The notes under the pieces are model-generated. The model was not told the origin of the DNA. It was given only the letters and a program-made list of their open reading frames with translations, and made no database searches. Both the position numbers and the translations under genes were made by a program. A DNA stretch of 64,000 bases from Deltaproteobacteria bacterium (GTDB taxonomy: Bacteria; Desulfobacterota_D; UBA1144; Nemesobacterales; UBA2774). Location: NCBI GenBank assembly GCA_040223695.1, contig JAVKFU010000017.1, forward strand, positions 62,001 to 126,000. The letters run 5' to 3'. Below, one piece after another: positions 14,104 to 25,106 of the stretch; position 1 is the stretch's first letter, and each line of letters opens with the position of its first letter.

Positions 14104-15045
14104 ATGTTCGTTACGATTCTAAAAAAGTATATCTGGGTTGTGAATCTGTTACTGCTCACGGGGCTTGCCTACCTGGCCGCACTCACCGTAAATCAAAAAC
14201 TCGAGGGTATGGTTACTTCATCGGGAGCGATAGCGTCACAGCGACTCGCGCCTCCGGAAGATACAGACGCGAGAGTATCCAATGTTCGTCATCCTTTAAC
14301 TTACTATAATGTAATTCTAAAAAGAAACGTTTTCGGCATTTCCGGCTTATCCGAAGACTCGACACACGGAGGAAAAGGCGAGTCATTGCCGGATACGACT
14401 CTCGATGTAGTGCTTCTCGGAACGATAATCAACTCCGACGGCTCATCCAAGGCGATTATCAAGAATCCCGCCAACAATAAAGTAAACGGCTACAGCGGCG
14501 GAGAAGAAATCCATATAATAGAAGCCGAGAAAGTGACGCTGGTAGAGGTAATGAATTGCAGCGCGGTGATCCAGCGTCAAAAAAACGGCCGTGAGACTAT
14601 TAAGTGCAGGAATCTGGGAGAGGAAGTGTCAAAATCGGTCAAGACACCTACGAGCAGAAGAGCGGCGCGATCGAGAAATCCGGCGGGCAAAAGGAATACC
14701 CGGGAGGCTGAGGATTCGGAGGGTATAAATAAAATAGGCGAGAGTGAATACGAGATAAGCAGAGAGCTTCTGGAGGATTTACTGAGTGATCCTACGAACA
14801 TAGTTCAGCAGGCCAGAGTAATTCCTCAGAGTGACGGTCTTAGATTCTTCGGCATCAGGTCTAACAGTATATTCTGGAAGATCGGCATAAAGAACGGCGA
14901 TACGCTGCACAGAATAAATAACGTCGAACTCAACGATGTAGAAAGAGCGCTTGGGGTATTCGAGGAGCTCAGAGCACAATCTTATTTCACAATAGATTTC
15001 ACGAGGGCTGGTAAAGAGTACTCATATGAGTACACTGTTAAATAA
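14104..15045 (+). CDS. gspC: Type II secretion system protein GspC
   Basis: GspC links the inner-membrane platform to the outer-membrane secretin. Residues about 7-29 form the single membrane anchor. The HR domain follows (RNVFGISG and VVLLGTI, residues about 75-150), then a basic, Arg/Ser-rich linker (TSRRAARSRNPAGKRNTRE), and a C-terminal PDZ-like domain (from about residue 225; GIKNGDTLHRINN). The 313 residues fit the family. No strong ribosome site precedes the ATG. It is the first gene of the gspC-K operon; gspD starts 113 bases later. Confidence 0.92.
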   Translation: MFVTILKKYIWVVNLLLLTGLAYLAALTVNQKLEGMVTSSGAIASQRLAPPEDTDARVSNVRHPLTYYNVILKRNVFGISGLSEDSTHGGKGESLPDTTLDVVLLGTIINSDGSSKAIIKNPANNKVNGYSGGEEIHIIEAEKVTLVEVMNCSAVIQRQKNGRETIKCRNLGEEVSKSVKTPTSRRAARSRNPAGKRNTREAEDSEGINKIGESEYEISRELLEDLLSDPTNIVQQARVIPQSDGLRFFGIRSNSIFWKIGIKNGDTLHRINNVELNDVERALGVFEELRAQSYFTIDFTRAGKEYSYEYTVK

Positions 15046-15158
15046 ACCGACATGCGGGCATTACGGGTTATTATCGACTTGCCGATTCGTCCTGGACATG
15101 AGCTTCCTATTCCAAATGAGGCTATCAGTGGCGTGCTTAACATAGTGAGGATTACACA

Positions 15159-17852
15159 ATGAAAGGATTGCTGATCAATGTTCTGATTCTCGGTTTTTTA
15201 CTGACACTCTACGTATACGTTAATACCGACCACGAACAAACGGTTATCAGGGAAAATTCCGCCGAAACAATGGAACTCGAGCGGGAATCCGGAATTAATA
15301 CCTCGAAGAGCGATGATATAAGCTACAAAATACAGGCAGGGGACACGCTGTCGCAGATCGGCGAGAAATTTCAGATATCCGTGAGTGATATAAAAGAATT
15401 AAACGGTTTGACCGGGGACCAGATTGTTGTCGGAGATTATATAGACATACCCCGGAAGGATACGCAAGACCCCGAAGACGGCCGGGACTACGGTTCTTAT
15501 GATGACTTTGAGAATTCGACTATAATGACTCAATCACTCGAGGAATATGAAACGCAAGCGCAAAACGGCGGCGACTCCGAACAGAGCAGAGAGGAACGCA
15601 AGGCGGAGATTGAAAGAAGGCGGCAGGAACTGCTATTACAAAGACAGCAAAAAAGACAGAAGATCAGAAACGGACGCACACAACCAATACAATCTCTCGA
15701 GGAAGCTACTGAGCCGGAAGAATCCGAACCCGTTACCGGGGACACCAAGCCTGAAATAGTCATAACCGATGGTGAAATAGTAAACCTTCAGGCTGAAATG
15801 GATGTTCAGGACCTGATCCAGACAATAAGCGAAATAACAGGCCAGAACTTCGTACTCGATGAAACTGTCAAGGGAAAGAAGATAACAGTGATAGCGCCCG
15901 GCGGATTCAAAAAAGAAAACGCAATGAGACTTTTCGAGACCATCCTGAGCTTAAACGGGTTCTCGGTGGTAAAGAAGAACGGCACAAATATTGTAGTCCC
16001 GAAAAGAGATATTAAAATCAGCAGTATTCCAACCGAGGTCGGAACCGATTACGCGGAATCCTCCGACAGATACATAACCAGGCTCATACAGCTCCAGAAC
16101 GTGAACGCAAGCGAAGTCGCGAATATTCTGAAACCGCTAATATCCCGTGAGGGGGACATAGTGGTTTATCCGGCCATGAATATGCTCATCGTCATAGAAA
16201 CGGTGGATAATCTGAACCGTGTGCTCAAGATAATCGAAAATCTCGATGTCGAAACCGAAATAGAATTTATAAAAATACATAACGCGGATGCCGCCGAAGT
16301 AGCGGCCAAACTAGTAGAGATATTCGGGGGCACGGCTTCATCCGGCTCGAGCGCGCAGCCTCGGACAAACCAGCAAACGCAAAGACAGCAATCAACATCA
16401 CGCACCAGGCGTAATCTTCCCGGAAGCTCCGAGAGACAGACGCAGGCCGCGATCAGCTCTCAAACAACCGGCCAATCCGCGGCAGTGGGATTCAAGGTGA
16501 TAACGGACGAAAGGACAAATTCTCTCATTATCATCGCTTACCCCGATGACATGGCGAAGATTAAGGCCGTAATTGAAATACTGGATGTCGAGACAGACGA
16601 GCCGGAAGAGGGAATTTTTGTAATTCGCGTGCTCAACGCCGACGCTGAACAGCTCGTCTCCGTCCTGGCCAGTCTTTTCGGAGGCACAGGGGGGGGCGGC
16701 TCTCTGGTATCATCGGGAAGAGCGCAGACAACCTCGGGAGTCGGGGCGGGGTCCTCCCCGTTCGGAGGAACTAGCACTACGGGAACATCATCCGCCCTAT
16801 CACGTCAGGCAATACAGAGGGGAGCCGTTTCGGGATCGAGTGTTGTGGCGGAAACCGACGAGATCCGGGTTACAGCGGACCCGGCTACAAACTCTGTAAT
16901 CATTATAGGATCCAAGAGAGATTATGAAACTATAAAAAAAGTTATCGAAGAGCTGGACGTTCGAAGAAAACAGGTATTCGTGGAAGCCGCGATACTGGAA
17001 GTGAGCCTCGATAAACTCAGATCATTCGGCACCAATCTGAGCATAGGGTTTACGGTCAATGACGATACTCTGGGATTCGGGGGGACTGTGCTGCCGGGCG
17101 TACCGAGCCTGCTCGGGGTTGCGGCGGACCCGGAGGCATCCGTCAACCTGCTTGGAAGTCTCTCAGGTCTTTTCCTGGGCGTTGTCGGGGAGGAAGTAGA
17201 CCCCGACGGTTCGGGCCCGATTCCGCCTATCCCTTCATTCAGCGCGCTGTTCCAGGCACTGACCTCGCTTACCGACGTGAATGTCCTCTCCACACCCAGC
17301 ATTATTACGACAGACAACGAACCGGCTGAAATTATCGTGGCCGATGTCATACCGTTCCCCACGGGGAGCACTGTCGGGGACAGCGGCGTAACCGTGCAGA
17401 CAATTCAGAGAGAGCCCGTGGGTATAAGACTTTCGATCACCCCTCAGATAAGCGAAGGGGATTTTCTGAACCTGAATATACTGACCGAGGTGTCGGCGAT
17501 CAGAGATACACCGGTACAGGGATTAAATACCGCCCAGTTTGGTATCGCAACTACGACCAGAACGGCGGATTCATCCGTGGTTGTTAAAAACGGGCAGACA
17601 ATCGTAATAGGAGGCTTGGTTCAGGATAGAGAGAGCGTCCTTCAAAACAGGGTGCCGGTTCTGGGAAGGATCCCGGTCCTGGGCAACTTGTTCAAATTCA
17701 AGCAGCGACAAAGCACCAAGATTAACCTGATGATTCTGCTTACCCCCAGAATTGTTGAAAACGAGCTGGATATGCAGCGCATACTTGAAGAAAGGCAAAG
17801 GCGGAATATGCTTCTACAGGAGAGGGGATTTAACAGAGAGGAAGATAACTGA
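15159..17852 (+). CDS. gspD: Type II secretion secretin GspD with an N-terminal LysM domain
   Basis: This forms the outer-membrane exit pore. From the N-terminus: a hydrophobic segment (4-21) without a clear signal-peptidase site; a LysM domain (54-99; IQAGDTLSQIGEKFQIS, LNGL, IVVGDYIDIP), a fold that binds peptidoglycan; an acidic then basic Gln/Arg-rich linker (about 105-200); N0 (about 205-285), N1 (about 310-380), N2 and N3 domains with Ser/Gly/Gln-rich inserts; and the secretin domain (about 640-870; VPVLGRIPVLGNLFK). A usual GspD has 650-700 residues; the 897 here reflect the LysM, linker and inserts. GAGG lies 8 bases before the ATG. Confidence 0.94.
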   Translation: MKGLLINVLILGFLLTLYVYVNTDHEQTVIRENSAETMELERESGINTSKSDDISYKIQAGDTLSQIGEKFQISVSDIKELNGLTGDQIVVGDYIDIPRKDTQDPEDGRDYGSYDDFENSTIMTQSLEEYETQAQNGGDSEQSREERKAEIERRRQELLLQRQQKRQKIRNGRTQPIQSLEEATEPEESEPVTGDTKPEIVITDGEIVNLQAEMDVQDLIQTISEITGQNFVLDETVKGKKITVIAPGGFKKENAMRLFETILSLNGFSVVKKNGTNIVVPKRDIKISSIPTEVGTDYAESSDRYITRLIQLQNVNASEVANILKPLISREGDIVVYPAMNMLIVIETVDNLNRVLKIIENLDVETEIEFIKIHNADAAEVAAKLVEIFGGTASSGSSAQPRTNQQTQRQQSTSRTRRNLPGSSERQTQAAISSQTTGQSAAVGFKVITDERTNSLIIIAYPDDMAKIKAVIEILDVETDEPEEGIFVIRVLNADAEQLVSVLASLFGGTGGGGSLVSSGRAQTTSGVGAGSSPFGGTSTTGTSSALSRQAIQRGAVSGSSVVAETDEIRVTADPATNSVIIIGSKRDYETIKKVIEELDVRRKQVFVEAAILEVSLDKLRSFGTNLSIGFTVNDDTLGFGGTVLPGVPSLLGVAADPEASVNLLGSLSGLFLGVVGEEVDPDGSGPIPPIPSFSALFQALTSLTDVNVLSTPSIITTDNEPAEIIVADVIPFPTGSTVGDSGVTVQTIQREPVGIRLSITPQISEGDFLNLNILTEVSAIRDTPVQGLNTAQFGIATTTRTADSSVVVKNGQTIVIGGLVQDRESVLQNRVPVLGRIPVLGNLFKFKQRQSTKINLMILLTPRIVENELDMQRILEERQRRNMLLQERGFNREEDN

Positions 17853-17867
17853 TATTTCCGTACAGTC

Positions 17868-19556
17868 ATGAAGAGCATACAAGAAATAATAAGCGAAAGG
17901 AATCCCGAGGCAGTCCTCAAGATAGAGCAAATTTTAGCCAAAAACGGAGAGAGTCTTGAAGAAGCCCTTATAAAATCCAACATTCTGGATGAAGAGGAAA
18001 CGCTGGAAGTCCTGTCGGAGTTTTACGAGTTCCCTTACACGCTTACGATTCCGGAAAAAGACATCGATTCCGAGCTGATAAAAATCCTTCCAATAAGCTT
18101 CGCGAAAAAATTCAGGATAATACCTTTTCAGAAGAAAGACGGCAGGGTCACAATAATTTTTGCCCCTCCCCTGGATCTGTATGCCCTTGATGAGATGAAA
18201 TCGCTTTTTGAATGTGAACTGGACCCCGTTGTGGCTCTGAATCACGTCGTTCTCGACAGCATCAACCGTGTCTATGAGCGCGGTAAAGAAGTTGAGGAGG
18301 GAATAGAAGACGACTCAGCGGGCATCTCGGAATATGACATACAGGAACCGAAGGACCTCCTCGAAGCCGAGGATGAAGCCCCTATTATCAGATTCGTCAA
18401 TTCGCTTATGTTTCAAGCGGTAAAGGAAAAAGCAAGCGATATTCACCTTGAGTGTTTTGAGAAGGAATTGTCGGTGAGATACAGAAAGGACGGAATACTT
18501 CACGAAATCACATCCGTACCTAAAAAGCTTCAGGCATCCATAATTTCCAGGGTAAAAATTATGGCAGAGCTGGATATTGCCGAGAAGAGAAAGCCTCAGG
18601 ACGGAAGAATACGCGTAAAAGTAGCCGGAAGGGACGTCGATGTGCGTATTTCAACAGTCCCGACCATATGGGGGGAAAGCGTTGTCATGAGGCTTCTGGA
18701 CAGGTCGTCGGTGCTGCTCAGCCTGGAGGACCTCGGGCTCAAAGGCAAAAAACTGGAGACCATTGAAAGGCTCATTCACCGTCCTCATGGAATAATACTC
18801 GTAACAGGGCCTACCGGTAGCGGTAAAACCACGAGCCTCTACGCCAGTCTTGAGAGAATCAATTCGCCGGACAAAAAAATCATTACGGTTGAAGACCCGG
18901 TTGAGTATCAGATTCAGGGTATAAATCAGATTCAGGTCAACCCTAAAGTAAACCTTACTTTCGCAAACGGTCTCAGGTCAATCCTCCGTCAGGACCCCGA
19001 CGTTATTCTCGTGGGTGAGATTAGAGATAAAGAAACCGCCGATATCGCGATTCATGCCTCCCTGACAGGACACCTGGTTTTTTCCACGCTTCACACTAAT
19101 GACTCCGCAAGCGCAATAACCAGGTTGATAGATATGGAAATCGAGCCTTTCCTCGTCGCCTCGTCCCTAATGGCTGTAATAGCGCAGAGACTTCTACGTT
19201 TTTTATGCAGTCACTGCAAAGAACCCTATGAACCCCATGACGATGAACTCTTAAAGATCGGAATAAAACGTGACCACCTGAAGGACGGCATATTGTTCCG
19301 CGCCACCGGATGCGAGAAGTGTTTTGATATGGGGTACAGCGGAAGAACCGCAATTTTCGAAATCCTCCTGATAGACGATGATATCAGAAACCTGACATTG
19401 GGCCATGTCGATTCAACCAAAATCAAGAGAAAGGCGATGGAGCACGGAATGACAACGCTGAGATCGGACGGTGCAGAGAAGATACTCCAGGGGTTAACCT
19501 CGATCGATGAAGTGATGCGCGTAACCGAAGAGGAGAGTACCGTTGATCCGACTTAA
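17868..19556 (+). CDS. gspE: Type II secretion ATPase GspE
   Basis: A cytoplasmic hexameric ATPase that powers pseudopilus assembly. The N-terminal GspE_N/MshEN domain covers residues about 10-140. The nucleotide site shows Walker A GPTGSGKTTS (about 314), the Asp box VEDPVEYQI (about 341) and the Walker B region ILVGEIRDKETADIA (about 378). The zinc motif CSHC (about 446) with GCEKC (about 481) is complete. It starts 15 bases after gspD. In known systems its N-terminal domain docks on GspL, which is not encoded nearby. Confidence 0.97.
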   Translation: MKSIQEIISERNPEAVLKIEQILAKNGESLEEALIKSNILDEEETLEVLSEFYEFPYTLTIPEKDIDSELIKILPISFAKKFRIIPFQKKDGRVTIIFAPPLDLYALDEMKSLFECELDPVVALNHVVLDSINRVYERGKEVEEGIEDDSAGISEYDIQEPKDLLEAEDEAPIIRFVNSLMFQAVKEKASDIHLECFEKELSVRYRKDGILHEITSVPKKLQASIISRVKIMAELDIAEKRKPQDGRIRVKVAGRDVDVRISTVPTIWGESVVMRLLDRSSVLLSLEDLGLKGKKLETIERLIHRPHGIILVTGPTGSGKTTSLYASLERINSPDKKIITVEDPVEYQIQGINQIQVNPKVNLTFANGLRSILRQDPDVILVGEIRDKETADIAIHASLTGHLVFSTLHTNDSASAITRLIDMEIEPFLVASSLMAVIAQRLLRFLCSHCKEPYEPHDDELLKIGIKRDHLKDGILFRATGCEKCFDMGYSGRTAIFEILLIDDDIRNLTLGHVDSTKIKRKAMEHGMTTLRSDGAEKILQGLTSIDEVMRVTEEESTVDPT

Positions 19557-19600
19557 CGGGTCATGCGCCGGATTAGAGCTTGCCGAATTTTTATTAAGAA

Positions 19601-20806
19601 ATGCCTGTATATAAATATAAAGCTATCGACGAGACAGGAAAGACCGTTCAGGGTATCGTAGATGCGGAATCCCCGAAGGGCGCAACCGACAAACTCAAAC
19701 GCCAGGGCGTTTTTCTATCGTCTCTAAATGAAGTTAAGGAGGGCAAGTCCAGAATATTTATTCCGTTTAGAGGAATAAATATCGCGGAACTTGCGGTCAC
19801 TACAAGGCAATTCTCCACTTTAATTTCCGCGGGCTTGCCCCTGGAGGCCTCTCTCGCAGCGCTCTCGGAGCAAACCGAGGATGCGAGACTCAGCCAGGTT
19901 CTTACCCAGGTCAAGGATAGGGTGAGCGAAGGAAGCTCTCTCGCAAACGCTTTGAACGAGCACAGAAATATATTCTCCGATCTGTACATAAATATCGTCA
20001 GAGCCGGCGAGGCGAGCGGAACGCTCGACATCGTGCTGCTACGGCTCGCCGATTTTCTCGAAAAGCAGGCCGCCCTTACCTCACGGGTAAGGAGCGCGCT
20101 CATCTATCCGATATTCATGTTTTTCATCGGCGGCGGCGTACTGTTTTTCACCATGACTTATGTCATACCGCGTATAGCAAAGATTTTTGAGGACAGCGAG
20201 AAAGCACTGCCTCTCATGACCGTTATACTTATAAATATAAGCGGATTCTTCAGCAACAATATACTGCTGCTGTTGCTGATTATTCCGATTATCGCATTCG
20301 CCGCTTACAGATTCAACGGGACCGAACGGGGGAAGATGTTATTCGACCGCCTGTCATTGAAGCTGCCGGTTTTCGGCAAAATAAACTCTATGGTAGTAGT
20401 ATCGAGGTTTACGCGGACCCTGGGAACCCTGCTTGCAAGCGGTATCCCCCTTCTGGACGCGCTTAAGATAGGGGAGGCCGTTATGGGAAACCAGGTCTAC
20501 GGCAAAGCCCTTGAAGAGGTCAGAATAAATGTAAGAGAGGGAAGCAGCCTGGCTCAACCCCTCCGGCAGAGCGGTGTATTTCCCCCTCTTGTAACAAGGA
20601 TGATCGCGGTCGGTGAACAGACAGGCGAGATGGAACAGATGCTTACAAAGGTAGCGGATATTTACGATCAGCAGGTAGAGACCATGGTGTCTACACTCAC
20701 ATCCCTTCTCGAACCGGTTATGATAGTAATAATCGGCGCCGTCATGGGGTTCATAGTGTTCGCGGTTCTGCTGCCGATATTCAATTTGACACAAACTATA
20801 GGCTAA
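19601..20806 (+). CDS. gspF: Type II secretion inner-membrane protein GspF
   Basis: The polytopic platform protein of the secretion machine. It has two repeated cytoplasmic T2SSF domains, the first near residues 65-190 (TRQFSTLISAGLPLEASL) and the second near 270-395 (TRTLGTLLASGIPLLDALK). Three hydrophobic segments lie around 165-190, 220-240 and 370-395. The opening MPVYKYKAIDETGK is typical. The 401 residues are of normal length. Confidence 0.96.
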   Translation: MPVYKYKAIDETGKTVQGIVDAESPKGATDKLKRQGVFLSSLNEVKEGKSRIFIPFRGINIAELAVTTRQFSTLISAGLPLEASLAALSEQTEDARLSQVLTQVKDRVSEGSSLANALNEHRNIFSDLYINIVRAGEASGTLDIVLLRLADFLEKQAALTSRVRSALIYPIFMFFIGGGVLFFTMTYVIPRIAKIFEDSEKALPLMTVILINISGFFSNNILLLLLIIPIIAFAAYRFNGTERGKMLFDRLSLKLPVFGKINSMVVVSRFTRTLGTLLASGIPLLDALKIGEAVMGNQVYGKALEEVRINVREGSSLAQPLRQSGVFPPLVTRMIAVGEQTGEMEQMLTKVADIYDQQVETMVSTLTSLLEPVMIVIIGAVMGFIVFAVLLPIFNLTQTIG

Positions 20807-20821
20807 AAGGAGGTATAAGAA

Positions 20822-21250
20822 ATGAGAGCTCAAGGTGGTTTTACGCTAATTGAGATAATGGTTGTACTTCTGATCATCGCGGGGCTTGCGTACATCGTAG
20901 GGACCAATGTTATCGGGAGATTCGGAGAGGCCAAAAAAGAGGAGACAAAAATTCAGATCAAAAATCTGGAGTCCGCCCTGAAGCTGTTTAAGCTAGATAA
21001 CGGTTTTTATCCGGAAACACAGCAGGGTATTAGTGCGCTGATTCAGCCGCCGACTGTGGGCAGAGAGCCCTGCTGCTATGCCAGGGACGGATACCTGGAG
21101 GGCAACCAGGTCCCGCTCGACGGCTGGAAAAACGAATACATTTATATAGGCCCTGACCAGACAGGCGACGGCACCTACGAAATAATCTCCATCGGAGAGG
21201 ACGCGGTTCAACAAACGGAGGACGATATTTCGAGCCGCAATATACAATGA
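20822..21250 (+). CDS. gspG: Major pseudopilin GspG
   Basis: The main subunit of the pseudopilus. The prepilin leader is six residues (MRAQGG), followed by FTLIEIMVV with the conserved Glu5 of the mature protein. Then come a long hydrophobic helix and a short C-terminal globular domain with YPETQQGISALIQPP and an Asp-rich end that may bind calcium (PDQTGDGTYEI). AAAGGAGG lies just upstream. Its stop overlaps the gspH start (ATGA). Confidence 0.97.
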   Translation: MRAQGGFTLIEIMVVLLIIAGLAYIVGTNVIGRFGEAKKEETKIQIKNLESALKLFKLDNGFYPETQQGISALIQPPTVGREPCCYARDGYLEGNQVPLDGWKNEYIYIGPDQTGDGTYEIISIGEDAVQQTEDDISSRNIQ

Positions 21251-21762
21251 GCCGCAGGAACGGTTTTACGCTTATCGAGCTTCTGGTTGTGATTATTCTC
21301 ATCGGCGCTCTGGTTTATATTGCCGTTCCCAAAATCAAGAGCGGTACGGAGATAAATATAAAGAGCGCGTCCCGGAACCTGAGCGGCACGATAAGGTATT
21401 TATACAACGAGGCGGCTTTTAAGAAAAACATATACAGGCTTGTGTTTGACGTCGAAAACGATGAATACTGGATAGAGTATTTGAACCAGAATGAGTACGT
21501 GCAGTCCGCCGATCCGTATCTCAGAAGAAGAAAGCTTCCGAGCGGTGTTCATTTCAGAGACGTAATTACGGAGCGGACTCTCGGCAAGAGTTCGCTCGAC
21601 GATTCAAAGGAATTCATACTGTTTCTGCCCACGGGCTTTGTAGAGCCCGCTGTTATTCATCTCGCAACCGACAATGAGGACTATTACACACTTGAGACAA
21701 AACCCTATACGGGCGGAACGAGGGTATATAACGAGTATGTAGAGCTTCTCAGGAGTAATTAA
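21247..21762 (+). CDS. gspH: Minor pseudopilin GspH
   Basis: Leader MSRRNG is followed by [10 protein letters not shown] with Glu5, then one hydrophobic helix and a beta-rich domain of about 130 residues. The start overlaps the gspG stop by four bases (ATGA), so the two are translationally coupled. The order after gspG and before gspI supports the H assignment. The 171 residues fit the family. Confidence 0.92.
21751..21755 (+). promoter_or_regulatory. Ribosome binding site deciding the gspI start
   Basis: AGGAG lies within the last codons of gspH. It is 8 bases before a CTG at 21764 and only 2 bases before an ATT at 21758. It favours CTG as the initiation codon of gspI. Confidence 0.5.
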
Positions 21763-21763
21763 A

Positions 21764-22189
21764 CTGTATTCAAGTACGAATAACCGATTATCTACAAAAT
21801 CAGGCCGCCGGGATAAAGCTGCCGGCTGTCGCACGGGATTCACGCTGCTCGAAGTTATTATCGCCGTTGCGATAATAGGCTCAACCCTGGCGATACTTCT
21901 GGGGGCCGTTAACAAAAATCTCATACTGGCTTCCCGGTCTAAAAACCTTTCCGCGGCGTCCTTCCTCGCACAGAGAAAAATGGGAGAGATAGAGAGCGAG
22001 GGGTTCCCGGAAATCGGCAACAGGGAAGGGGTATTTGAGCAAGACCCCGATTTTAAATGGTATACGTCTGTGCAGCCCTATAATATAGAGCAGCTCGGCA
22101 CGGATATAAGAATAGTAATTTTAACTATTACCTGGAATGAGGGGAACAATGAATTTACTGTCGCAACGGCTATCTCAGACTACAAATAA
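21764..22189 (+). CDS. gspI: Minor pseudopilin GspI, non-ATG/GTG/TTG start
   Basis: The reading frame is open from 21743 to the stop at 22187-22189. It encodes a basic leader ([11 protein letters not shown]) followed by [14 protein letters not shown], the prepilin cleavage site with Glu5, then a short domain ending [20 protein letters not shown]. No ATG, GTG or TTG occurs before this motif; the only internal ATG, at 21980, lies after the transmembrane helix. The best start is CTG 21764, one base after the gspH stop and 8 bases after AGGAG; ATT 21758 is the alternative. From CTG the product is 141 residues. Automated callers will truncate or miss it. Confidence 0.85.
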
Positions 22190-22820
22190 AGGCTTTACGC
22201 TTATCGAAGTGCTGATCGCGATATTTATCGCTTCAATAGTGCTTACGGTGCTTTATTCCTCTTTCTTTCAGATAATCAAGGCTAAGGAGAATATCGAGGA
22301 ACAGCTGGAGCTATACCATGAGGCGAGAGTCGTTATGTCGAAACTTACAAAAGACCTGGTTACGGCGTTCCCGAGAGGGCTCGTTAACTCCGACACAACA
22401 AACATTGCTGCGCCCTTCTTTTACGCAACAAAAGAGGGCGGGCAAAGCGAATTGAGCTTTACATCCCTGGCGAGAACCCCGACTCAGGGTTCACGGGAAT
22501 CCGATCAGACGCAAATCAGTTATTTTACGGAACCGATCCCTGATACAGACCTCTACGCGCTCATCAGAAGGGATAATCCTACGATTGAAAACGAGAACGG
22601 AGGTACTCAATATCCGATATCGGAGCGCATAGTGGCGCTTAATCTTTCATATTTGTTTACCAGCACGGAGGGAGACGGCGCTCAGGAATTTACGGCTGAA
22701 TGGAACTCGAACGAAACTCTGGAAATTCCAAGCGCGGTTAATGTGGAGATAGTCATGCGAACCCCGAGGGGGGAAGATCTGGAATTCAGCACACTGGTAA
22801 TAATACCGGTTGTTAATTAA
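22149..22820 (+). CDS. gspJ: Minor pseudopilin GspJ
   Basis: Leader [15 protein letters not shown] is followed by [11 protein letters not shown] with Glu5, one hydrophobic helix and a beta-rich domain. ATG 22149 has GAGGGG just upstream; an in-frame ATG at 22137 has none. The start lies 41 bases inside gspI in another frame, a coupled overlap common between gspI and gspJ. With GspI and GspK it should form the tip of the pseudopilus. Confidence 0.92.
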
Positions 22821-22845
22821 TATTATCAACTTTGAGAGCAAAGTA

Positions 22846-23970
22846 ATGAACCCGAGCAAGATTATGGGAAAAAGTAATTCAACGAGCATAAATAAGCGAG
22901 ATTCCGAAAAGGGTATAGTTCTTGTAATAGTTATCATCATCTTAGCAATTCTGATGATACTTGTTACTGATCTTATATATTTCACACAAATAGACACCGA
23001 GATCTCCGCTAATACGAAAGACGAGATAAAAGCGCGCTATATTGCGAAGTCTGGAATTCATGTCGCAGCAGGGACACTAAAGGCAAGGCCGCTTGAAGAG
23101 CTATCGGAAATAACGGCGGCTTTTTCCGGTCAGAACGAGAACTCGGAGGGCTCCTGGGCAATCAGTGTCCCCTATTTCCCGGTAGGTGACGGAAGCGTAT
23201 CCGTTACTGTCGTCGATGAGAGAGCAAAGATCAACCTTAACTCCCTGGTTAACCCGTCCACAAACCAGGTCGACCAGCAGGTGCTTACCGAGTTAAAAGA
23301 GCTTTTCCGATTCCTTGAGGTAGACGGCGCTAAATCCGACAGATTTACCTCCAGCCTTATTAACTGGACGGACGCTCCCATTGAGGGGGCCCCGAATGAC
23401 CAGGACTCATCCGGCGCGAACGGTGATTTTTACTCCAGCCTCGAAGATCCTTACAGAATAAAAGACGGCCCGCTCGACACTATTCATGAGATACGCATGA
23501 TCGACGGGATGGACGATGAATTTTTTAATCAGATCAAAGATTACGTTACCGTATATCCGGGTGATAAAAAAATAAATTTCAGCACCGCTCCGAAGGTGGT
23601 ATTGATGGCAGCGATAAAAGGCTCTGCCGTTTCGGCGATAGGGGGAGAGGAAAACCCGTCGGAAAATGAAGTTGACGATGACGTGGCGGAGCAGATAGCT
23701 GATGAAATAATCGCCGCCAGGGAGGACGAGCCGGTTATAGACCAGCGAAAAGCCAGGGAGCTGGCCACGAACATAGACCCGACCGCCCAAATAAGCGCCG
23801 GTCTCGTCGGTGTTGCTCTCGGCAGCGGTGAAAGCGAAGTTTTCTCGGTAACGGCCATAGGCAGCCTGGGAGAAGAAAACCCGACAAAGAGAATAATAGA
23901 AGCGGTACTGAAGAAAGAAAGACAAAACAGGGAAGAGGTTGTAGATATACTGACATGGAAAGAGCTCTAG
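22846..23970 (+). CDS. gspK: Minor pseudopilin GspK
   Basis: A leader ending SEKG precedes the hydrophobic helix IVLVIVIIILAILMI. The Glu5 of other pseudopilins is missing, as is normal for GspK. The large C-terminal domain (about 300 residues) contains the helix-hairpin-like repeats typical of T2SSK (DTIHEIRMIDGMDDEFF, KARELATNID). The start is uncertain: ATG 22846 gives a 23-residue leader, while a TTG at 22810 would overlap gspJ. The stop is 16 bases inside the following ATPase gene. Confidence 0.9.
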   Translation: MNPSKIMGKSNSTSINKRDSEKGIVLVIVIIILAILMILVTDLIYFTQIDTEISANTKDEIKARYIAKSGIHVAAGTLKARPLEELSEITAAFSGQNENSEGSWAISVPYFPVGDGSVSVTVVDERAKINLNSLVNPSTNQVDQQVLTELKELFRFLEVDGAKSDRFTSSLINWTDAPIEGAPNDQDSSGANGDFYSSLEDPYRIKDGPLDTIHEIRMIDGMDDEFFNQIKDYVTVYPGDKKINFSTAPKVVLMAAIKGSAVSAIGGEENPSENEVDDDVAEQIADEIIAAREDEPVIDQRKARELATNIDPTAQISAGLVGVALGSGESEVFSVTAIGSLGEENPTKRIIEAVLKKERQNREEVVDILTWKEL

Positions 23971-25106
23971 AAAAATTAAATCAAATACGGAATGATTTGA
24001 AGGCAAGCTACTATGAAAGGGACGAGGTCATAGACGGATCTCTCTGCGCGCTGCTTACAGGGCATCATCTGCTCCTGATAGGTCCCCCGGGCACGGCCAA
24101 ATCACAGCTGGCAAATGAAATATGCCGCAGAATCGGCGGAGCACGTTATTTCCAGTGGCTTCTTACCAAATTCACCACTCCCGAGGAGCTGTTCGGGGCG
24201 GTTAGTCTGAAAGGGCTTGAAAACGATGAATACAGAAGGGTGATATCGGGCAAGCTGCCCGAAGCGCACATCGCTTTTCTGGACGAGGTGTTTAAAGCAA
24301 GCTCATCCATTCTGAATACCCTGCTCACTATCATGAATGAAAGGATTTATTATAACGGGACTGAAATATTGAATATACCGCTTATTTCATTGTTCGGCGC
24401 CAGCAATGAGCTCCCGTCGGAAGAGGACGAGCTCGAGGCCCTCTATGACCGCTTTCTCCTAAGATACGTGGTCGATTACATAAAAGAGGATTTCAGATTC
24501 CTGAAAATGCTGAATACGGAATCGAGAGTCAGCGAGGATATGGCAATAACACCTCAAGAACTCGACTACCTTAAGGTGGAGGCGAATAAAGTCAGCGTTC
24601 CATCGAATATATTGAAGCTTATATCACGCATAAGGAAAGAGCTAGGGAAGAAAGGCGTAACCCCGTCCGACAGGAGATACAAGCAGTCAATATCGCTGCT
24701 CAAGGCCAGGGCCTACCTCGAAGGAAGAAATGAAATCTCCGAGGATGAGCTCCGTTTTCTGGAAAATGTGCTCTGGAGGGAGCCCGGGGAAAAACCCGAA
24801 GTTCAGTCCGTAATCCATCAAGCACTTCACGGATACAGGGACAGGCTCAGGGAGCTTCTCATACAGGCGAAAGAGCTCGACTCATACTCAAAGCGAGACT
24901 GGGAAAACGAAGAGATGCTTATAAAAGCCAACATAGAATCCCAGACAAAATTAAAGCAGATAGTCTCGAAGCTCGAAGACCTGGTAGAAGAATGCAGGGA
25001 AAGGGGAAAACCCGCCGATGAAATTTATAAAGCGAAAGAAGAGATTGAGGGTATTCAGAGGGAAATTCTCGACAGGCTGGTGTCGGGGAAGGAGGAAATG
25101 GCGTAG
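23955..25106 (+). CDS. MoxR/RavA-type AAA+ ATPase
   Basis: An AAA+ ATPase of the MoxR group, which usually acts as a chaperone for complex assembly together with a von Willebrand A protein. Walker A is GPPGTAKS (residues 42-49), Walker B AFLDEVFK (about 105-112), followed by a sensor region GASNELPSEEDELEALYDRF with a likely arginine finger. A helical lid follows and the last 100 residues look like a coiled coil. The sequence is closest in style to RavA. It overlaps gspK by 16 bases, so it is translated with the secretion operon. No ViaA-like or VWA gene is nearby; gspL and gspM would be expected here. Confidence 0.88.
   Translation: MERALEKLNQIRNDLKASYYERDEVIDGSLCALLTGHHLLLIGPPGTAKSQLANEICRRIGGARYFQWLLTKFTTPEELFGAVSLKGLENDEYRRVISGKLPEAHIAFLDEVFKASSSILNTLLTIMNERIYYNGTEILNIPLISLFGASNELPSEEDELEALYDRFLLRYVVDYIKEDFRFLKMLNTESRVSEDMAITPQELDYLKVEANKVSVPSNILKLISRIRKELGKKGVTPSDRRYKQSISLLKARAYLEGRNEISEDELRFLENVLWREPGEKPEVQSVIHQALHGYRDRLRELLIQAKELDSYSKRDWENEEMLIKANIESQTKLKQIVSKLEDLVEECRERGKPADEIYKAKEEIEGIQREILDRLVSGKEEMA

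Follow-up and report, generated by a model that had tools for sequence, protein, structure and literature searches.

A RavA-type MoxR ATPase gene behind gspK in the split type II secretion system of Candidatus Dadabacteria

The window analysed here (64,000 nucleotides; contig JAVKFU010000017.1, positions 62,001 to 126,000, forward strand) contains gspC-K, the major share of a Candidatus Dadabacteria type II secretion system (T2SS) that would be split yet complete. In the reading to which we give a probability of roughly 0.8, the T2SS is split but complete, the gene of a RavA-type MoxR ATPase was captured once behind gspK in the ancestor of four families, its VWA partner is encoded elsewhere, and the ATPase forms a ring that remodels a membrane complex and is made with the T2SS; the claim that the T2SS itself is the client is left out of this figure. 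The window's own genome (G000) and its relatives were assigned to families f1–f8 within the Dadabacteria class. Fifty-eight genomes of the class, 25 of them from f1–f4, were searched for the ATPase and for a ViaA-like protein (P0004), and genome-wide statements rest on profile searches.

The gsp operon and a second locus behind dnaA

Downstream of gspC-D-E-F-G-H-I-J-K lay an AAA+ gene for a 383-aa protein; the whole run (14104–25106) is on the plus strand. The original prediction had described this order and placed the AAA+ start 16 bases within gspK, and the coordinates agree (gspK 22846-23970, AAA+ ORF 23955-25106, same strand). Since the next gene is that of a convergent oxidoreductase, the ATPase gene is the last of the run. 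Features were assigned as follows:

14104..15045, +, gspC (PF11356 T2SSC, 35 bits, over cut-off; NCBIfam GspC_delta NF041515, 186 bits, over cut-off)
15159..17852, +, gspD, secretin with N-terminal LysM domain (Secretin, three Secretin_N, GspD N0 and LysM, all over cut-off)
17868..19556, +, gspE, ATPase with MshEN N-terminal domain (T2SSE, 482 bits; MshEN, 51 bits)
19601..20806, +, gspF (T2SSF, 222 bits, two stretches)
20822..21250, +, gspG, major pseudopilin (T2SSG, 97 bits, and N_methyl)
21247..21762, +, gspH (prepilin N_methyl motif and position; orthologues of relatives 54-80% identical and in the same place)
21764..22189, +, gspI (prepilin motif in the translation)
22137..22820, +, gspJ (prepilin N_methyl motif; conserved in relatives)
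22846..23970, +, gspK, last pseudopilin gene (T2SSK_1st, 65 bits; NF037980 GspK, 126 of 130 bits)
23955..23970, +, gspK/ATPase overlap ATGGAAAGAGCTCTAG (16 bases; same length in 21/21 genomes)
23955..25106, +, RavA-type MoxR AAA+ ATPase, 383 aa, ATG at 23955 (bpMoxR, AAA_5, AAA_lid_8)

No ATG, GTG or TTG was seen ahead of the prepilin motif of gspI (window positions 21740-21770), and a non-standard CTG start at 21764, 8 bases after an AGGAG (21751-21755), is likely. The LysM domain at the N-terminus of GspD was present in the tested members of f1, f4 and f7 (in f7 as two stretches) and absent from two f6 members; it might tether the secretin to peptidoglycan with no need for GspAB.

No gspL- or gspM-like ORF was found within the gspC-K–ATPase operon, and the earlier statement that the two genes are missing stood for the operon. 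It fell for the genome. A profile built from seven GspLs detected a single full-length GspL at G000:C19:150619-152109 (758 bits), and a GspM profile detected GspM at G000:C19:150012-150605 (278 bits), with gspN next to it. The locus order, on the minus strand, was dnaA-dnaN-comF-gspL-gspM-gspN (L134). Operon gspC-K and gspL, gspM and gspN at G000:C19 complete the T2SS core set of the genome, as one alternative of the original prediction, that L and M lie elsewhere, had allowed.

Relatives carry dnaA, dnaN and a comF-like phosphoribosyltransferase gene, followed by genes for proteins of about 500, 200 and 300 aa. In close relatives the ~300-aa protein is a T2SS GspN (TIGR04411, 121 bits, cut-off 50); in relatives the ~500-aa protein matched GspL_C, PilN, PilM_2 and TIGR01709 GspL, below or near cut-off, and the ~200-aa protein matched PilO and T2SSM. 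GspL and GspM each had one transmembrane segment at the expected place (332-360 and 32-57, respectively). Binataceae and relatives were used as a control: the protein encoded directly 3' of gspK matched the Dadabacteria GspL profile in 6/6 genomes, which supports the identity of the dnaA-linked protein as GspL. By sequence, the dnaA-linked L, M and N resemble ordinary T2SS subunits whose genes lie away from gspC-K. The order dnaA-dnaN-(comF)-gspLMN was conserved in the T2SS-bearing families f1-f4 and f6 (L134; L091-L096, L103, L135, L136) and is therefore probably ancestral to those families. A bifunctional-nuclease-like gene and pheA come after this block in several genomes.

Sharing of PilM from the separate PilMNOPQ operon was our first idea, dropped once a PilM_2 search returned the ~500-aa proteins of relatives that are GspL. 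In its full form, this idea has the type IV pilus PilM-PilN-PilO (G000:C9:82215) standing in for GspL and GspM in the T2SS, with some other task for the dnaA-linked set. The genome does have PilMNOPQ, PilM is distantly related to GspL, and Pfam T2SSL (PF05134) matched only this PilM in the own genome. Against it, the dnaA-linked set includes a T2SS GspN over cut-off as well as the GspL_C and TIGR01709 matches, its GspL profile finds the gspK-linked GspL of Binataceae, and the set is absent from f5 and f8, where profile searches found no GspK, GspL or ATPase orthologue either. We regard such sharing as very improbable.

The ATPase had also been proposed to take the place of GspL and GspM. As a matter of gene position this was half right, for the ATPase gene holds the slot after gspK in which Binataceae have gspL. 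As a matter of function it failed: profile searches found GspL in 25/25 f1–f4 genomes and in f6, GspL and GspM accompanied the ATPase in all 21 genomes that bear it, and f6 genomes had GspK (detected in all but one), GspL and GspM but no ATPase. The ATPase itself had no transmembrane segment, no actin-like or ferredoxin-like domain and no match to GspL, PilM, PilN or PilO. Because gspLMN lies on another contig behind dnaA-dnaN-comF, an arrangement shared by f6, which has a T2SS but not the ATPase, the ATPase is no substitute for GspL/M, and we give that reading practically no credence.

Genome G021 (L098), the sole f7 member with GspK, had gspC–K and lacked the ATPase. Neither GspL nor GspM was found in this one genome by profiles that worked in all other T2SS-bearing families, which may reflect an assembly gap or a real loss. 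Since f6 and f7 have gspC-K without the ATPase, the latter is dispensable for T2SSs in general.

A T2SS has been mentioned for some marine Dadabacteria clades (PMC8115339). The lsp genes of Legionella are, like the gsp genes of Dadabacteria, split over several chromosomal loci (PMC6617341). Dadabacteria differ in having gspLMN behind dnaA-dnaN, and the part of the source considered here mentions no MoxR-type gene at the lsp loci (PMC6617341). The conserved dnaA-dnaN-comF-gspLMN arrangement is an addition to the known split T2SSs.

The ATPase and a ViaA-like candidate partner

The ATPase matched the Pfam models bpMoxR (197 bits), AAA_5 (101 bits) and AAA_lid_8 (72 bits), and its best NCBIfam match was RavA (NF010054, 234 bits; equivalog cut-off 681). 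It was 38% identical to E. coli RavA over residues 6–294, and RavA was the best match in a PDB sequence search (2.4e-59). A confident AlphaFold model (pLDDT 89.5, pTM 0.83) gave an AAA core with a three-helix tail, for which RavA was again the best PDB fold (3.8e-24). The domains comprised the AAA core (about 7-188), the lid (219-287) and the tail (277-380; helices 277-312, 319-349 and 355-380). The motifs GPPGTAKS and FLDEV were present, and the catalytic residues G43, G46, K49, S50, D110, E111, N151, R166, R240 and R241 were invariant in 38 sequences; judged on these residues, the active site is intact. A RavA-type MoxR AAA+ core (Walker A, Walker B, sensor 1 and arginines) was thus accompanied by AAA_lid_8 and a helical C-terminal module.

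The protein is not an E. coli RavA equivalog: its score of 234 bits lies below 681, and Pfam LARA_dom and ATPase_RavA_C gave no match in the ATPase, with RavA run as a control. By analogy it may work like RavA all the same. In E. coli RavA, the LARA domain binds LdcI and phosphatidylglycerol and is not required for ViaA binding (PMC9489729). The two proteins share the AAA core, AAA_lid_8 and a helical tail thereafter; the Dadabacteria ATPase differs in having no LARA, hence no LdcI- and phosphatidylglycerol-binding part, and in having its gene in a gsp operon. A different T2SS ATPase, GspA, is membrane-anchored and has a peptidoglycan-binding region. GspA (ExeA), of the secretin-assembly factor GspAB, is an accessory ATPase of some T2SSs (PMC10128026). 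The present ATPase resembles it in being associated with a T2SS; unlike GspA, it has no membrane span and matches RavA/MoxR models rather than a GspA model.

A VWA partner had been expected from the MoxR assignment. Several VWA proteins are encoded in the own genome, and three of the genes (L137, L151, L153) were rejected as partner candidates, each sitting beside a MoxR-type ATPase of its own. The expectation was borne out by P0004 (G000:C15:620366–621898, minus strand), the product of an orphan VWA gene unlinked to the ATPase gene, which co-occurs with the ATPase. Its best family was ViaA (NF008230, 84 bits; equivalog cut-off 500), blastp against E. coli ViaA gave an E value of 2e-20, and the DxSxS (MIDAS) motif was present in 19/20 loci scanned. 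Having a C-terminal VWA domain with MIDAS, P0004 is by sequence ViaA-like rather than ViaA; its C-terminal sequence lacks the arginine-rich helix reported for ViaA.

Strong P0004 orthologues within the class were confined to f1, f2 and f4, a range close to that of the ATPase. Among the 58 genomes, the ATPase was accompanied by P0004 in 17 and unaccompanied in 4, P0004 occurred alone in 3, and the remaining 34 had neither protein. P0004 was undetected in 5/25 f1-f4 genomes, four of them with the ATPase and the fifth (G008) lacking the ATPase as well, its contig ending inside gspK. Most of these five are incomplete assemblies, but G009 and G010 were estimated to be 96% and 92% complete. On the analogy with E. 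coli RavA-ViaA, P0004 is a candidate cognate partner of the ATPase, and binding is predicted. The likeness lies in a VWA partner with ViaA as its best family; the difference is that ATPase and VWA genes, as a rule neighbours in MoxR/VWA pairs, are unlinked in the Dadabacteria genome.

Conservation and origin of the gspK–ATPase linkage

Within the class, orthologues of the ATPase (60–100% identity) were found only in f1–f4, in 21/25 genomes. In all 20 of the other genomes that bear it, gspK lay directly 5' of the ATPase gene with an overlap of exactly 16 bases. The linked proteins diverge among relatives to about 51% (GspK) and 60% (ATPase) identity, and identical length at such divergence argues that the overlap is not due to chance. 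The gspK-moxR linkage, which the original prediction had proposed to trace in relatives, was therefore conserved and invariant in f1-f4; so of the two observations that only together would have refuted that prediction, a normal gspLM pair elsewhere was found and an absence of conserved linkage was not.

The own GspK ends in ..TWKEL*, and a similar tail occurs in relatives without the ATPase: GspK of f6 and f7 ends in S-W-(K/R/I)-E-R with no ATPase gene after it. The ATPase start codon therefore probably arose within an older GspK motif, and the constancy of the overlap owes something to the constraint on GspK itself. Taken alone as proof of selection for coupling, the 16-bp overlap is weakened by this conservation of the tail. 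No canonical ribosome-binding site was evident ahead of the ATPase start. In f6 (L097, L099, L100, L102) an apparent leucine tRNA gene, read by eye, lies a few bases past the gspK stop.

In a tree of five T2SS genes, a branch with SH-aLRT 100 separated the f1–f4 rows that bear the ATPase from those of f6 and f7, and the gsp-linked ATPases formed one clade (SH-aLRT 100). With a single group in each tree, one capture event is enough, and all instances of the linkage together weigh as a single evolutionary event. Two distant genomes (L024, L025) with ATPase matches at 36–37% had no gsp neighbours.

Outside Dadabacteria, 64 ATPase loci were read (Binatota, Myxococcota and others), and gsp genes lay beside the ATPase in none of them (0/64). 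By a strict criterion, at least 24 of the 64 loci had a P0004 homologue encoded next to the ATPase on its downstream side; about ten further loci with such a homologue escaped the criterion through gaps, frame choice or contig ends. Linked or not, a homologue of P0004 was present in 10/10 ATPase-bearing non-Dadabacteria genomes tested. In Binataceae and relatives (L214, L220, L222, L231, L251), an orphan ATPase gene lies closely upstream of a conserved RecO-like gene (recO read by eye), and the six tested genomes with this recO-linked orphan have a P0004 homologue elsewhere. The recO linkage is another conserved re-linking of a RavA-type ATPase; with the VWA gene elsewhere, it indicates that splitting and re-linking to an unrelated gene occur in this ATPase family.

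Proposed role of the ATPase

We propose that the platform split is the older feature, the inner-membrane genes gspL-gspM-gspN probably lying behind dnaA-dnaN(-comF) already in the ancestor of f1-f4 and f6. Later, in a single event in the f1-f4 ancestor, the ATPase half of a RavA/ViaA-type MoxR/VWA pair would have become established as the last gene of the gsp operon, where its coding sequence begins within the conserved WKE motif at the C-terminus of GspK; the gene of the ViaA-like partner is at a separate chromosomal site. Most likely the ATPase assembles into a hexameric ring to which the VWA protein docks, and ATP use would drive remodelling or quality control of an inner-membrane protein complex, its putative client. 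This scheme of ring, VWA engagement and membrane remodelling is proposed by analogy with RavA-ViaA and NorQ-NorD (PMC9489729, PMC10585395, PMC9976466). In NorQ/NorD (PMC9976466), too, a MoxR-class ring ATPase and a VWA protein act together on a membrane complex, and the same mechanism is proposed here; NorQ/NorD serves nitric oxide reductase and is by sequence not the closest subfamily to the ATPase. The position of the ATPase gene suggests co-production with the T2SS, probably in step through co-transcription and overlapping translation. We therefore take the ATPase for a probable accessory membrane chaperone whose production accompanies that of the secretion machinery.

Co-production leaves the client to be weighed. 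At about even odds, the ATPase is functionally unconnected with secretion, and the pair serves membranes or respiratory complexes in general, like E. coli RavA-ViaA with its action on Frd, Nuo and membrane lipids (PMC10585395, PMC3893208, PMC9489729); its place behind gspK would then be a historical accident, made costly to undo by the overlap. The Binataceae orphan upstream of recO, with its VWA partner elsewhere, makes linkage alone a weak proof of T2SS function, the ATPase never adjoins gsp genes outside Dadabacteria, and f6 and f7 have a T2SS without it. Chance neighbours usually separate, however, and this linkage is unbroken over four families, with the ATPase diverged to 60% identity and the overlap constant.

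That unbroken linkage, exclusive to gspK in f1-f4, is an argument for the pair as a dedicated T2SS factor that assembles, disassembles or checks the inner-membrane platform or the pseudopilus, as NorQ/NorD and RavA/ViaA are reported to do for membrane complexes (PMC9976466, PMC9489729). GspK was present in 9/10 non-Dadabacteria genomes with an ATPase–VWA pair, a weak argument because GspK is widespread among the other sampled lineages. Against a dedicated factor, the T2SSs of f6, f7 and most bacteria manage without the ATPase, and gsp linkage is lacking outside Dadabacteria. We entertain this reading, which is close to the role in building or regulating the platform raised by the original prediction, tentatively, and that the T2SS, through its platform, is the client of the ATPase pair is possible with the odds somewhat against it. 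The narrower proposal, that the RavA/ViaA-type pair of Dadabacteria is a dedicated assembly or quality-control chaperone of the T2SS inner-membrane platform, we consider unlikely. No literature tying MoxR/RavA to a T2SS was found in a search with subscription papers largely outside its scope, and Dadabacteria combined with RavA returned sponge-microbiome studies, judged by title.

For the study of secretion systems, the split found here means that the view from a single operon, in which L and M seem absent, may lead astray where the platform block is encoded elsewhere. A dedicated platform chaperone, if real, would be the first link of a MoxR system to a secretion machine, as far as we found. 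The clients of RavA/ViaA-type chaperones are still debated, and an ATPase gene locked to one membrane machine, its overlap constant and its origin single, offers a specific, testable client candidate.
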